DNA of 64,000 nucleotides, from positions 1 through 64,000 of the forward strand of contig CASFTM010000008.1 in assembly GCA_949297775.1 (NCBI GenBank), written 5' to 3'. Origin of the DNA: an uncultured bacterium. Lineage in GTDB: Bacteria; Elusimicrobiota; Elusimicrobia; Elusimicrobiales; Elusimicrobiaceae. The first letter of the stretch is position 1, and the number at the start of each line of letters is the position of its first letter. Below the pieces are notes generated by a model. The model did no database searches. It was given only the letters and a program-made list of their open reading frames with translations, and was not told the DNA's origin. Both the position numbers and the translations under genes were made by a program. Below are positions 11,006 to 18,104 of the stretch, one piece after another.

Positions 11006-11128
11006 ATATTTTATTCTAACAAAATATAACCCCGCCTGGCTGCAGAATTGCATTTTGGGCCTGGGCCCAAAAACCGATTGGGCCTTTTGACCCTAGCCGT
11101 GTAAGAAGCGGAAAAGTATAATAACAAT

Positions 11129-12313
11129 ATGAAATGGTTCCTGAGCTTACTGTGTATTGCTGTTAGTTTATCTTCTGTTTTCGGACAAAAACTCCCTTCC
11201 AAAAAAATGGCGGAAGAGCTTCTTCGCCCGCAACAGATTGTTCAAAAGGCGTTGCCGGCCCGCTTGGCTGTGCCACCGGCTATCCGGGGTGCGGCTCGTA
11301 CGGCCGGATATGCCGTTCAATCGGTTAAAAAAGAGGGGAATGCAACTTCTTCTGAAGGGCGCCCTGTGTTGTCGCCCGAAGCTTCCGCCTATTTGGAACG
11401 TTTGGCCGCCCGCCGCGCGGCGGATGCCAAAAGCGCGCCCGCTTTAACGCCGCTGCAGGAAGTAGAAAAAAATATCCGCCAATCGTTGGTGGAAATTGTA
11501 GGACGGGCTACCGGCGAGCTGATGGGGAGTGGTTTTGTGGTACGCAGCGGATCGGGGACCTTGTATGCAGTGGCTTCGTATCATGTGGTGGGGCACGCCG
11601 GCAATGCGCTGGCGGTGCGGATGTATGATGCAGAAGGGAACCCTGTTTTTTATCCTTGTGTGCTGGTGTCCGCTTCCGGTTCGTATGGCATTAATGCGCC
11701 GGATGCGGCCATTATTGCCTTGCCGGCCCGTGCGGCCCGCCATGCCAAGCCTCTTAAAGTGGCTTACGGCCTGCCCGCATCAAACGCTACACTGGTGACG
11801 TGGGGCATCCCCTATGCGGTGGGCCGGGCGATACGTGTGGGAGACTTACGGGTACAACACGCGGAAAGTTTTAAAATTGTGATGCATTCCCAACAAGAGG
11901 CAAACCACTTGCGCGGCCTATGCGGAAGCCCCGTATTAAATGAAGAAGGAAAAGTGGCGGGCATTTTCAGTGGGCACAAGGAGGGGGAGGACCTATTTTT
12001 TGCCGTAAATGCCCGCAAAGCGTTGGATTGGCTAATCAGCAATTATGAAAGCAGAAGGCAAGCAACGCTGACTTTTAAATTGCACGGACGGACCATTTTT
12101 ACCCTGCAAGCGGGCGAAACAATCGGCAAGGTGCGCCATTTGGATGAACTGGGCCGCCCTTTAGCAGAGGTGTATGTTCCCCGGTATGACGGAGCCTTTG
12201 ATTTGGAACATTTGGAAGGGTTGTTCCCGGATATAAAACCTGCCGACCGGTTGGATTTTGAAATTGTCAAACACCGGTTTGTTGACAGAGTAATCTCGGT
12301 GGAAATTTTGTAA
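11129..12313 (+). CDS. secreted trypsin-fold peptidase with Cys at the nucleophile site
   Basis: A 394-residue protein with a signal peptide (about 1-19, cut before Gln20). Residues 20-110 are low-complexity Ala/Arg/Lys-rich. A trypsin-like domain runs from about 112 to 292: GSGFVV, catalytic His152 in ASYHVVG, Asp192 in APDAAIIAL, and GLCGSPVL at 263-270 where GxSGGP is expected, so Cys265 replaces Ser. A separate C-terminal domain of about 95 residues follows. TATAAT at 11117-11122 lies 6 nt before ATG with no ribosome site. It may be a cysteine-type chymotrypsin-fold peptidase or an inactive binding protein. Confidence 0.75.
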   Translation: MKWFLSLLCIAVSLSSVFGQKLPSKKMAEELLRPQQIVQKALPARLAVPPAIRGAARTAGYAVQSVKKEGNATSSEGRPVLSPEASAYLERLAARRAADAKSAPALTPLQEVEKNIRQSLVEIVGRATGELMGSGFVVRSGSGTLYAVASYHVVGHAGNALAVRMYDAEGNPVFYPCVLVSASGSYGINAPDAAIIALPARAARHAKPLKVAYGLPASNATLVTWGIPYAVGRAIRVGDLRVQHAESFKIVMHSQQEANHLRGLCGSPVLNEEGKVAGIFSGHKEGEDLFFAVNARKALDWLISNYESRRQATLTFKLHGRTIFTLQAGETIGKVRHLDELGRPLAEVYVPRYDGAFDLEHLEGLFPDIKPADRLDFEIVKHRFVDRVISVEIL

Positions 12314-12333
12314 TATTGCACAAAAAACGTGCT

Positions 12334-12363
12334 AAAAGCTCCCTGCAAACAGGGAGCTTTTTT
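12334..12363 (+). terminator. intrinsic terminator
   Basis: AAAAGCTCCCTG pairs with CAGGGAGCTTTT, then T. Confidence 0.9.
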
Positions 12364-12446
12364 GTGGGGGAAGGCGGCTGTACATTTCAGACGGTCAAGA
12401 AAGGATAAATATTATAGAATGAAATAATGAGGTATTCTTGCCCCCT

Positions 12447-15400
12447 ATGAAAATACTGCGGCTGACTGTCGCCTTGTCCTTGTTTGTGCAATTCGTTGCC
12501 GCTCCTGTGGCCGGCGCCGAATCGTTGCCGTACAGCCTGGTGGACAAGGATCAGTATTCTATTTTTGCGGAAGACCAAGCCGCCAAAGAGGAAGAAGCCC
12601 TTACGTTGCAAGACCCTCCGGACGACGCGCAGCTGCTTAAGTTTACCGACGAATTTTGGCGTCAGGCCGTTACCGCCGTGGACGGCGCCTATAAACTGGA
12701 CAACGAACCGGAGCCCATTCCCGACTTAACTTTATTAAACCCTACGCTTTCACTGCCGCTTTACGGCACCAGTATCGCGTTGACGGGCCGCTATGTGCTG
12801 GGATTTAAAATGGCTGCCCAAAAGTACAAAGAAGATTCCAACAACGATATTGAAGACCGCAACACCAGCACCTTTGAAATGCAGCAGGAAATGCAGCTTA
12901 AAATGCAGGGTAAAATTTTGGAGCGCGTGTTTGTGGATATTGACTACGACGACCAGCGCGAAGAAGAAAAAACCCTCTCCGTAGCCTACCGCGGCAAACC
13001 CGGCGAATTGGTGCAAACAGCGGAATTTGGGGATATTAACTTGTCTCTGCCAGAGACGGAATTTATCGCTTACCAAAAACAGTTGTTCGGTGCCAAAATG
13101 CACTTGCAGCACAAAAACGCCAACTTGTATTTGATTGGTTCGCAGACTAAAGGTTCCAGCAAACAGAAACAGTTTATCGGCAGCAGCGTATCGGAAATTA
13201 TTTCGCTGGCGGACACCTCCTATATCCGCCGTACCTATTACGATTTGACTTTCGGCGGCAATGTCCGCCCGTATATAGACGACCAGGGCACTCTCCGCTA
13301 TCCCGTAGACCGCACGGCTTACGATGAATGGCGCAGTGTGATGGGCAGTATTTCCCCGGGCACGGAAGAAATTTACTACTACAGCAACGATTCTTCTACC
13401 TCTTCCGATTATGTTCCCGTGGATAAAACCGCCACCGACGCCTTAGGCGGAGGTGATTATCCCGCCAAATGGCAACTCCTTACTCGCGGGGTGGACTATA
13501 CCGTGGATTACGCCAGCGGCATTGTTACGTTTAAACGTACGATAACGGCGGAGAGCGTGATTGCCGTGGATTACCGCGATACCCGCGGCAACCAATTAAG
13601 CTCTGTAATGGGTACACCCAATACTATTAAACTAATTAAAACTTCCAACGACCAATCTGTTGTGTCAGGGGCGGGTATTTCCACCGAAACCGCCAATAAA
13701 CTGGAACTGAAAACCTATTACAACATTGGCGCCCAAAAAATCACGCAGGATAACGGCAAAGGCAACTTTATTTTGCAGCTGCAGGACGCCAACGGCCAGG
13801 CTGTTACAAACCCTTATTATAGTTATCCGACGTATATCAACGTGGATTTTAACACCGGTATTTTTGATTTAAGCTACCGCATAAACGATGCCGGCCTTTA
13901 CGCTACCACGCCGACTTCTTCCAAGAACTTGGCGTTTAAAATCCAATATGAGTCCACCGTCAAGACTTATTTTATTGAATCGAATATCGTCATTGAGTCC
14001 GAGACCGTCAAACTAAACGGGCGCACGCTTACCCGCAACAACGATTATTATATTGACTATACTTCCGGCTTTATCACTTTTTACAAAGGGGACGAAATTA
14101 CCGAAAATTCCGTCATAGACATTACTTACGATACCACCTCCGGTTCCAGTTCCAACAATGCCGTTATGGGCGGACGGCTGGACTATAAGCTTTTTGACAA
14201 AATCGTGATGGGCGCTACGATGCTTCAAGAAGGGGGCGAAAAACCCAGCACCGTGCCGCAGGTGGGGGACTACGGTAAAGATTTGTTGGTCTATGGGGCG
14301 GATATCAACGGGAAAGACATTAAATTGGCGGAACCGCTGTCGGTGGATTTCAGCGCAGAAGTTGCCAAAAGCAAAAAAGACCAAAACCTGTTCGGCTATG
14401 CGATGGTGGACAGTATGAACGAAACCACGGAGCAAGTGGGAGGCTCTATGATTTTTAGGGACTGGATTTTTGCTTCCAACCCCAGCGGCAAACCGGCTTT
14501 CTTAAATTCTATCCATTGGGACACGCAGGATTTGCCCGCCTTGGAAATTAACCCGCACGCCATCGCCAATTATAACGATAAACAGCAAGTTCTTATCTTA
14601 AATTACGACTTCACCCTCCCCGCCACCACCATAGACCAATCCACCGGTCAGCCCTTTTTAAACGAGGAAGGACGGGACGAAGTGTCTATCGTTTATCCGC
14701 TTAGTACCAGCGGTATGGATTTATCCAGCAAGACGTCGTTTGAACTTACCATGCTGGGGGAAGCAAACGGCCCGCAGGTTAACTTTACCTTTGGTAACAT
14801 TTCGGAATATTCGGATAATTCTACCGGTATGAACACCCAATGCGGCACCAATGTTCCCAAAACGGAAGATATTTATTGCCGCAATACCTTGGCCCCGAAC
14901 GAAGACATCGGCTGGCTGTTTACCAACCCGGACGGAACTGAGGAGCGGTACAATCCGTTTGTAAATAACGTTTACAACCCTGAATCCCAGCCCAACGGAC
15001 GCATTGATACGCAGGACTTGAACGGGAACGGCGTGTACGATGCGGAAAGCGTCCCGCTGCAGGGCAATTTCGGCTTCGCCGGGGCCGCCATTGAGGGGAT
15101 GAACAACAATACCGCTTCCAATACTGCGTGGACTACTTATACGATGCCGCTTTTGCTCTCCGACGCTGAAAAAGACCAATGGACGGCGGTGCGCCACTTG
15201 CGTATTACCGTCAAACTGACGGATGAAATGAAACGGGCAGGTAAACTCAAAGGGCAAATTAAAATTGCCAATGTGTCTTTGTCCGGCACGGCGTGGAACC
15301 CGCAGGACGACACGGACCCGGATGTGTTTTCCGTCGCGGGTATTAACAATGTGGACAGCACTACCTACGAACCAATTTTTGCCGATACCACCGGCGATGG

Positions 15401-18104
15401 ACTGACCGTATTTAACTATTTGTATGGTTCCATTGCCAATTATAAACAGTCCACCGGTTCCACCAACGCACTGGACCAGGCGCTGAATGTAAAGTTTGAC
15501 ACCTCTTCCCTGCCGTCCGTGCCGGATAATACGGCGGATACCAATCCCGCCGGAGAACGCTACGCCAACCGCAACTTCAGCACGATGGATTTTACCCAGC
15601 ACCGCGAATTCCGTTTCTTGCTGCACGGCGCTATGGAACAGGGCGGCGCGCGCCCGCTGGACCAGGCCGGTACGGAGTTCTTTTTAAAAGTAGGTACGGA
15701 TACCAACTACGATAAAGTAATCGTACCGACGGACTTCCGCGGTTGGCGTTTGATTTCGCTTAAAATGGTGGACTCCAACGGAGACGGCGTAGCCGACACC
15801 TTTCAAAACGCTTCCGATCCTTCTTATAACGTTCGGGTGGTAAACCACCGTGCGGTAGGCGGGATTTTAAATTTCAGCGAAATCAGTTTAATTTTAGCCG
15901 GCGTGCAGAAAGAGAGCGTGTACGAATACACGTTTACGCAAGAGGACTCCAGCCAAACGTGGTATGCCCGCGGCCTTTTGCAGCCCGGCTTGGCTTTGTA
16001 CAGCGATACGAATTGTACTATTTCCGCCGGGCGGGTGGAAACGGCTTCCGCACTGCCAGACGGCAGTTATCAGGTGGTGCTGGAGGACGGAAAAACGTAT
16101 ACCGCCGTGTTGGGGCCGGTTACCGCAAGTACGGGCAGCACGGGGGAAGTGTGGCTGAATGTCATTCACTTGGCGGAGGCCATCACGTTGGAGGGCACGG
16201 CCTACAAAGGGGATGTGGTGGTTAAATTGGATGGCTGGGGCAGTGCCGGAGCAAAGTATAAATATCAAGACAGCAATTTTGAAACTCCGCTTGCCGTAGC
16301 CAAAAACCAGGAAGTGACGGAAGAAGAATATTTCCTGAAAGTGGACAAAATTAAGGAATTTCCGATGGAAGCAAACTTGACGCGTTCTTCCACCGTAACG
16401 CCTTTGGTTACGGATACCACCGATTATAACACCATCAGCCTGTTGGATAAGGGCCAGGTGGACCGGCAGACGGCGGTTATCCGCGGGGATTTTAAAAAAG
16501 ACAATTTGCCCCAAATCGGGTTGGAATATACCACTGATACCGTGGAATATGACGCCATGCAGCGCAAAGACGATTCCCGTACCTACGGCGCCACCTTGAC
16601 GCACTCCGCCGGCGCGTTTAAAAACATTTCCGCCGGATATCACATTACCGATTCGTCCATTGACTACGACCGCGAAAAACATCTAGAGTCTTCCAACTAT
16701 TACAATACGGACGAAAACACCCAAAAAATGAATATGAAGGTAACCTACCAGCCGACAAACAATTTTAACTTTACGCCCAGTTATAATTTAACGAAAAGCA
16801 AAGAGGACCGCACCACCTATCAGCAAACGGATACGCAAAACATCAGCTACCCCAAAGCCATGACGCAGAGCACCGGTTTTAACAGTACCTGGAAAATCGC
16901 CAAATGGCTGGCTCCGTCGGTCAGCTACAATATTAGCACGGTGGAAAGCAATAACCTGACGGCCAAAACGCTTTCCGCTTCCGGGCAGCAGGTTAATGTC
17001 GGCGTGGGCGAAGTGAAAACGGTCAACCGTAACGCGGACGGAGGTATTTCTCTTACGCTGAACGGAAACGAAATTTTACCCAAAAGCAAATTATTTAATA
17101 CTTTTGTAATTTCTTCCAGCTACCGCATTCAGGATGCGGATTCTTGGTATGATGTGGACAGCGATTTTGATTCCCGCAAAGAATTGTGGATTCGCAGTTC
17201 GCTCAAAGACGTGGGAGAATACGGCTACCGCAAAAGTTTAATTTTGCGCGATACTTTTACGTCTACCCAGCGGTGGAGTCCGTTCTCGCAATACAATTTG
17301 GGCGGAGCCGCCGCGCCGCTTAAAACGGTTTCTATCATTAATAACTTTACCAAAACCTTGCAGACCAACGATGAAACCGGCACTTCGTACGATTCCACCA
17401 GCCTGACCTTGCCGGATATGACGTTTTCCATTTCCGATTTGGAAAAATTCTTTTACGGCGGCAAATGGTTCAGCTCCTCCAACTTAAAACTGCGCTACAG
17501 TATGGTGGAACAAACCACCACCAACAGCGATGAACAATACACCACCCAATACGGCGGAGATTTGCGCTTTATGCTGTTTAATTATTTTGACACGGTGCTT
17601 AACTATACGCGCAAAGTGTCCGACAAAACGGACCTGCGCGCCGGCACCAGCTTGGAGCGCGTGGAAGACAACGATGTTTCCGCGCAGACTTCTTTTTACA
17701 TCGGTTCTATGCGCGTAACGCCCAAACTGCTCTATACGTCACACGATAAATGGCTGGTGGCGGGGCAAATCAGCGAAAGCAGTACCGAAATGACGCCCAG
17801 CCTGAACCTGCGGTGGGACTTCAATATGCCGCGCGGTTTTAAACTGCCGTTTATTAACAAAATGTACAACGCCACCAACCGCGTGATTTGGAATACTACT
17901 TTTTCATTTACGGATAAAAAATCCCCGGTGGAAGTAACGGAGAACTACCAAAAATACGATTTCAGCACTTCACTGGATTACGAACTTTCGCAGAACCTGC
18001 GTTTTACGCTGGGCGGCGGGCTGACGGTATTGCAGCACGCATACGTCAAGACGGAAGACTATGTGGCCTATAACGTGGCCGCCAACGTGACGGTACAATT
18101 CTGA
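12447..18104 (+). CDS. giant SprA-like outer-membrane protein
   Basis: An 1885-residue exported protein with a signal peptide (MKILRLTVALSLFVQFVAAPVAGA). About residues 80-240 carry the SprA-type signature: LPLYGTSIALTGRYVLGFK, a MQQEMQLKMQGKILERVFVD stretch, then GDINLSLPETEF..YQKQLFGAK. Repeated GVDYTVDYASGIVTF modules follow, and the C-terminal ~500 residues are alternating aromatic beta-strands ending in Phe, as in large barrels. SprA forms the type IX secretion translocon in Bacteroidota, usually ~2,300-2,500 residues, so this is shorter. ATG 12447 is chosen because the signal peptide starts there. No other type IX genes are visible. comF follows 4 nt after the stop. Confidence 0.72.
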   Translation: MKILRLTVALSLFVQFVAAPVAGAESLPYSLVDKDQYSIFAEDQAAKEEEALTLQDPPDDAQLLKFTDEFWRQAVTAVDGAYKLDNEPEPIPDLTLLNPTLSLPLYGTSIALTGRYVLGFKMAAQKYKEDSNNDIEDRNTSTFEMQQEMQLKMQGKILERVFVDIDYDDQREEEKTLSVAYRGKPGELVQTAEFGDINLSLPETEFIAYQKQLFGAKMHLQHKNANLYLIGSQTKGSSKQKQFIGSSVSEIISLADTSYIRRTYYDLTFGGNVRPYIDDQGTLRYPVDRTAYDEWRSVMGSISPGTEEIYYYSNDSSTSSDYVPVDKTATDALGGGDYPAKWQLLTRGVDYTVDYASGIVTFKRTITAESVIAVDYRDTRGNQLSSVMGTPNTIKLIKTSNDQSVVSGAGISTETANKLELKTYYNIGAQKITQDNGKGNFILQLQDANGQAVTNPYYSYPTYINVDFNTGIFDLSYRINDAGLYATTPTSSKNLAFKIQYESTVKTYFIESNIVIESETVKLNGRTLTRNNDYYIDYTSGFITFYKGDEITENSVIDITYDTTSGSSSNNAVMGGRLDYKLFDKIVMGATMLQEGGEKPSTVPQVGDYGKDLLVYGADINGKDIKLAEPLSVDFSAEVAKSKKDQNLFGYAMVDSMNETTEQVGGSMIFRDWIFASNPSGKPAFLNSIHWDTQDLPALEINPHAIANYNDKQQVLILNYDFTLPATTIDQSTGQPFLNEEGRDEVSIVYPLSTSGMDLSSKTSFELTMLGEANGPQVNFTFGNISEYSDNSTGMNTQCGTNVPKTEDIYCRNTLAPNEDIGWLFTNPDGTEERYNPFVNNVYNPESQPNGRIDTQDLNGNGVYDAESVPLQGNFGFAGAAIEGMNNNTASNTAWTTYTMPLLLSDAEKDQWTAVRHLRITVKLTDEMKRAGKLKGQIKIANVSLSGTAWNPQDDTDPDVFSVAGINNVDSTTYEPIFADTTGDGLTVFNYLYGSIANYKQSTGSTNALDQALNVKFDTSSLPSVPDNTADTNPAGERYANRNFSTMDFTQHREFRFLLHGAMEQGGARPLDQAGTEFFLKVGTDTNYDKVIVPTDFRGWRLISLKMVDSNGDGVADTFQNASDPSYNVRVVNHRAVGGILNFSEISLILAGVQKESVYEYTFTQEDSSQTWYARGLLQPGLALYSDTNCTISAGRVETASALPDGSYQVVLEDGKTYTAVLGPVTASTGSTGEVWLNVIHLAEAITLEGTAYKGDVVVKLDGWGSAGAKYKYQDSNFETPLAVAKNQEVTEEEYFLKVDKIKEFPMEANLTRSSTVTPLVTDTTDYNTISLLDKGQVDRQTAVIRGDFKKDNLPQIGLEYTTDTVEYDAMQRKDDSRTYGATLTHSAGAFKNISAGYHITDSSIDYDREKHLESSNYYNTDENTQKMNMKVTYQPTNNFNFTPSYNLTKSKEDRTTYQQTDTQNISYPKAMTQSTGFNSTWKIAKWLAPSVSYNISTVESNNLTAKTLSASGQQVNVGVGEVKTVNRNADGGISLTLNGNEILPKSKLFNTFVISSSYRIQDADSWYDVDSDFDSRKELWIRSSLKDVGEYGYRKSLILRDTFTSTQRWSPFSQYNLGGAAAPLKTVSIINNFTKTLQTNDETGTSYDSTSLTLPDMTFSISDLEKFFYGGKWFSSSNLKLRYSMVEQTTTNSDEQYTTQYGGDLRFMLFNYFDTVLNYTRKVSDKTDLRAGTSLERVEDNDVSAQTSFYIGSMRVTPKLLYTSHDKWLVAGQISESSTEMTPSLNLRWDFNMPRGFKLPFINKMYNATNRVIWNTTFSFTDKKSPVEVTENYQKYDFSTSLDYELSQNLRFTLGGGLTVLQHAYVKTEDYVAYNVAANVTVQF

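Follow-up and report, generated by a model that had tools for sequence, protein, structure and literature searches.

A predicted secreted trypsin-fold thiol protease from a tandemly duplicated, fast-diverging family of the Elusimicrobiaceae

The window analysed here is a stretch of 64,000 nucleotides (contig CASFTM010000008.1, positions 1 to 64,000, assembly GCA_949297775.1) from an uncultured bacterium of the family Elusimicrobiaceae. On its forward strand, at 11129..12313, lies an open reading frame for a secreted protein of 394 amino acids that has a trypsin fold and a cysteine in place of the catalytic serine. We estimate a probability of roughly 0.8 that this protein is a secreted, active thiol endopeptidase of the PA fold and one member of a tandemly arranged, fast-diverging family of the Elusimicrobiaceae, a reading that draws on sequence and predicted structure.

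All features of the protein described below are given on the forward strand. A Sec-type signal peptide occupies about residues 1-20 (11129..11188) and appears in the structural model as a helix at residues 2-17; Sec-like N-termini are present in 161 of 166 family members (~97%). The next stretch (residues 21-105, 11189..11443) is variable and largely disordered, with low predicted local distance difference test (pLDDT) scores at 38-72 and poor alignment among orthologues, and is possibly a propeptide. The catalytic domain covers about residues 106-308 (11444..12052), is recovered by Foldseek and is modelled with pLDDT mostly of 93-98; within it, Pfam Trypsin_2 matches residues 133-279 at 29.2 bits against a curated cut-off of 27.6 (E=1.8e-6). 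Here lie His152 (11582..11584), equivalent to the general base His57 of chymotrypsin, Asp192 (11702..11704), equivalent to the triad acid Asp102, and the nucleophile motif G263-L-C265-G-S-P (11915..11932), in which G263 corresponds to the oxyanion-hole Gly193 and Cys265 is encoded by TGC (11921-11923). The strand F280-S-G-H283 (11966..11977), equivalent to chymotrypsin 213-216, belongs to the S1 pocket. A C-terminal beta domain of 84 residues (about 311-394, 12059..12310) completes the protein.

AlphaFold gives a confident chymotrypsin fold followed by this beta domain, and the topology of the model, taken as topology only, fits a double beta-barrel with His, Asp and nucleophile in order. The Foldseek matches in the PDB include DegS, DegQ, HtrA2 and MarP/Rv3671c (E=1e-8 to 1e-10), as well as Deg8 and SplE, and those in BFVD are viral proteases of the chymotrypsin-like kind, among them those of astrovirus and potyvirus. 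When the family profile is aligned to solved chains of plant Deg proteases, the family His and Asp fall on their catalytic counterparts and the Cys takes the place of the catalytic Ser; the same profile matches picornavirus 3C chains (E ~5e-4). Model, Foldseek, Pfam Trypsin_2 and profile alignment thus agree in placing the protein on the PA-clan fold. An earlier note, made from the letters of the window, had proposed a secreted trypsin-fold protease with Cys for the catalytic Ser, and homologues, Pfam and profile alignment bear this out: His152, Asp192 and Cys265 stand where it had put them, the codon of Cys265 falling within the interval that it singled out (11888-11940). It had also called the C-terminal domain unique. 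Residues ~311-394 indeed have no match in a Pfam search, and a Foldseek search of the PDB returned nothing at E<=0.001 (best E=0.35); however, a tail of comparable size is found in nearly all family members. Folded alone, this domain reaches a pLDDT of 78. Its identification as a PDZ domain or as a type IX secretion system (T9SS) tail was considered and rejected, as the Foldseek matches were insignificant.

Conservation speaks for catalysis by Cys265. In an alignment of 41 family members, only 17-56% identical, H152, G263, C265, G266 and G282 never vary, and at least 90% keep D192; H, D and C are present in all 13 syntenic orthologues. We gathered 216 non-redundant trypsin domains from Elusimicrobiota with a hidden Markov model of the catalytic domain. 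The nucleophile column of these domains holds Cys in 184, Ser in 25, Ala in 2, Trp in 2, His in 1 and a gap in 2, although the "Cys" of one domain (L080, GNCGLGFSGGP) probably reflects a misalignment, which brings the Cys count to ~183. The full H-D-C triad is present in 170 of the 216. Among the 184 Cys domains, Gly precedes the nucleophile by two positions in 183 and follows it directly in all, the triad Asp is kept in 171, and the nucleophile codon is TGC in 164 and TGT in 20. The Cys/Ser exchange for which the earlier note had proposed to search homologues is thus seen, and the random residues that it would have taken as contrary evidence are not what the column holds. The note in fact understated the case, since the substitution is fixed across an expanded family and is not a single oddity. 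Conservation across family and orthologues also means that the Cys is neither a sequencing artefact nor a chance change.

Most of the Ser domains are HtrA-like or make up small single-domain proteins of the phylum, and some come from members of the genus that are without the Cys family. Main-family members without Cys show Q/D/W (twice), S/D/H and H/N/A in the three catalytic columns; in other words, loss of Cys is accompanied by loss of His or Asp, and none of these members has reverted to Ser. L037, L072, L111 and L116 comprise probable pseudo-proteases with these patterns (Q/D/W, H/N/A, S/D/H) and a subfamily in which Asn replaces the triad Asp and Glu/Gly occupy positions 213/216. Cysteine fills the nucleophile column in 181 of 181 sequences and the next best column in 39, and the family alignment holds no second conserved Cys. 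A disulfide-forming role for Cys265 is rejected, because a partner Cys is not conserved.

The family is both expanded and narrowly distributed. This genome has nine members: the window gene, four in tandem on contig C1 and four on contig C21. Strong matches occur in 44 of 66 genomes of the genus, with up to 15 matches in a single genome of about 1.6 Mb, and the copies, here and in relatives, are mostly in tandem arrays. Across 340 genomes of the phylum, a paralogue profile (E<=1e-20) gave strong matches in only 2 of 100 genera. A scan of genome contigs found only 12 orthologues, in records labelled uncultured Elusimicrobiales, Elusimicrobia UBA1436 or bacteria with no finer label. On a quick maximum-likelihood tree, built with the nucleophile column left out, only two Ser/Cys changes are needed, with moderate support. 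An origin in phages or plasmids finds no support in viral, phage and plasmid collections: phages and plasmids gave no match to one paralogue used as query, and IMG/VR none to orthologue patterns, both being limited tests.

Several observations were made on other members and their surroundings. A deoxyhypusine synthase-family gene (L188:1866-2939; PF01916, E=3e-93) lies near the C1 protease array. One genome, G125, has an open frame of ~3968 amino acids with four trypsin domains, three of them with Cys (L167:38-10663), and a 1363-residue protein that ends in a protease and C-terminal domain (L168:1187-5278); a kinase-like HGD...N...D motif, seen by eye, lies upstream of the protease in the latter. 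An open frame of ~1100 amino acids (L103, G231:C18) combines two trypsin domains, one with Cys and the other with Ser, and could serve as a natural case for the study of nucleophile exchange. PADLOC gave weak RT-Protease_XI matches for 23 of the 41 alignment members and LmuA defence-model matches for 11, which presumably arise through the common trypsin fold.

On one side of the window gene are two lptF/lptG-family genes, which run on the opposite strand; on the other side, and on its own strand, is a gene for a homologue of the SprA outer-membrane translocon (12438-18104, +, 1888 amino acids; TIGR04189, E=1e-31, below the cut-off). This order is kept at the named orthologue loci. However, the interval at 11054-12437 and the same site in L205-L234 are variable, holding one Cys protease, distant Cys paralogues or no protease. 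Five other genomes have distant Cys paralogues here, in tandem in several, and at 11 of 30 inspected loci lptF/G and the SprA-like gene are immediate neighbours, no gene being detected in between. Since 63 of the 66 genus genomes have the SprA-like gene, these empty sites show that it is not an obligate partner of the protease, and the protease is rejected as an obligate T9SS component. Cargo status by tail domain was likewise rejected, as the Por secretion tail TIGR04183 was not found in this genome, while two control genomes matched.

The protease also evolves far faster than its neighbours. The 13 syntenic orthologues are 38-54% identical to the window protein, while the proteins flanking them are mostly 82-97% identical to those of the window (66-83% at the most distant locus). 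The protease has a median of 0.46 nonsynonymous substitutions per site (dN), about five times the value of its neighbours (0.05-0.09). In the closest pairs the ratio of dN to synonymous substitutions (dS) is 0.24-0.35 against ~0.01-0.14, a ratio that is rough because dS is near saturation in most pairs. These values, taken with the high dN, indicate purifying selection and yet fast change.

In the S1 site, position 213 in chymotrypsin numbering is His in 127 of the 184 Cys domains and position 216 is Ser in 125, whereas in the window branch Phe or Tyr stands at 213 (Phe280 in the window protein) and, in all orthologues except the most distant, His at 216. The S1 determinants of glutamyl endopeptidases are His213, Ser/Thr190 and residue 216, and 3C proteases keep His213 with Gly or Ala at 216 (PMC5508998). 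Because His213 and Ser216 match the glutamyl endopeptidase determinants, and His213 those of 3C, most paralogues may reasonably be guessed to prefer Glu or Gln at P1. This guess is not a secure one, since position 190, counted back from the Cys, has no Ser/Thr consensus in the paralogues. With Phe/Tyr213 and His216, the window branch has probably acquired a different preference at P1.

That the triad and the oxyanion glycines are strictly kept in a secreted, tandemly duplicated family which otherwise changes fast fits best with an active thiol protease whose targets diversify. In this reading, the protein would be exported by Sec, would probably lose or rearrange its disordered N-terminal region, and would then cleave by a Cys265-His152-Asp192 triad with the usual Gly-x-Cys-Gly oxyanion hole. 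A single Ser/Cys exchange would be the simplest history for the main family, with Cys retained afterwards, and the S1 site of the window branch would later have changed from the His213/Ser216 of the paralogues. These lineages inhabit the gut. We propose that the most likely role is the cutting of extracellular proteins of host, dietary or competitor origin, in an anoxic, reducing habitat that would keep the thiol active. The data themselves show a sequence with its conservation and secretion signals, a predicted fold, and the expansion and rate of change of the family; enzyme activity, specificity and target, and with them a nutritional, host-directed or competitor-directed role, we infer.

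Some observations weigh against this interpretation. The window branch is without the S1 His of most paralogues, and Asn replaces the triad Asp in nine Cys members, which may work with a dyad or have no activity. Because Cys members were the basis of the profile, the domain counts hold for the family and its nearest relatives and do not extend to trypsin-like proteins at large. The tree was built quickly and some of its branches are long; L079 and L103, which are multi-domain Cys members, may have a separate origin. In a different view, the family is catalytically dead and serves for binding, Cys being tolerated or structural. The few clearly degenerate members (Q/W, S/H, N/A) are in keeping with this, and repurposed proteases of the same fold exist, MamO being an instance (PMC4794232). 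We consider this view quite unlikely all the same, as the triad ranks with the best-conserved positions in a family that evolves fast, no second Cys is conserved with which a disulfide could form, and members that lose Cys lose His or Asp with it.

In another reading, the Cys would form an acyl-enzyme for transpeptidation or ligation, attaching surface proteins in the manner of a sortase, and not for hydrolysis. Thioester enzymes can transpeptidate, the SprA-like gene adjoins on the same strand, and Cys paralogues occupy this site in the five other genomes. However, the SprA-like gene is nearly universal in the genus while the protease is missing at over a third of the inspected loci, the C1 and C21 arrays of this genome are flanked by ordinary housekeeping genes, and the genome yields no TIGR04183 tail; we think this function unlikely. 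It seems very improbable that the Cys senses redox state or metals and that the protein is a regulated switch and no protease. A Cys outside the cell would be prone to oxidation, but the lack of a conserved second Cys and the full retention of the oxyanion-hole glycines and triad context weigh against this view.

Published surveys assign the PA-clan cysteine families to positive-strand RNA viruses (PMC6524800) and describe the cellular proteases of the clan as using serine (PMC4576821); the survival of a Ser/Cys switch has been studied by directed evolution of tobacco etch virus protease (PMC4576821). We think it likely that the present family forms a branch of the PA-clan cysteine peptidases that is cellular and bacterial, in which a Ser-to-Cys change arose in one bacterial lineage independently of RNA viruses, was fixed, and was followed by expansion to as many as ~15 secreted enzymes in a genome, their active site resembling that of 3C (GxCG...GIHxG). 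A literature search of titles and abstracts found no paper on a bacterial trypsin-fold cysteine protease; MEROPS and UniProt lay outside this search, and further bacterial examples are therefore possible. The bacterial "trypsin-like cysteine" literature is mainly periodontal and presumably concerns the unrelated gingipains. If our reading is true, the family is a further natural case of nucleophile exchange, fixed and diversified, with Ser relatives in the same phylum, in which the survival of a Ser/Cys switch could be examined. Annotation pipelines are likely to label its members serine proteases or inactive homologues, and it may yield new sequence-specific thiol proteases.

Among known systems, HtrA/DegS/DegQ, MarP/Rv3671c and SplB/V8 (Trypsin_2) share with the family a fold in which His, Asp and nucleophile follow in the same order and context, as well as secretion and a C-terminal accessory domain; they differ in that Cys replaces Ser in essentially every member here. 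The window protein has Cys265 where S1/Trypsin_2 serine proteases have the Ser of GxSGG/P, and the C-terminal PDZ domain of HtrA/Deg (S1C) proteases is absent from its Pfam matches. The glutamyl endopeptidases (Glu-SGP, V8, SplB) have in common with most paralogues His213 and, as in Glu-SGP, Ser216, but the nucleophile here is Cys, the window branch is without His213, and the paralogues that have His213 show no Ser/Thr consensus at position 190. The viral 3C and 3C-like proteases (PA clan; MEROPS C3, C4, C30, C37) process polyproteins, whereas here we find stand-alone chromosomal bacterial genes with Sec signals and a C-terminal domain of their own. They nevertheless share with the family a Cys in G-x-C-G on a PA fold and, in most paralogues, a G-I/M-H-x-G strand, and Pfam Peptidase_C3 matches 3 of the 41 aligned members.
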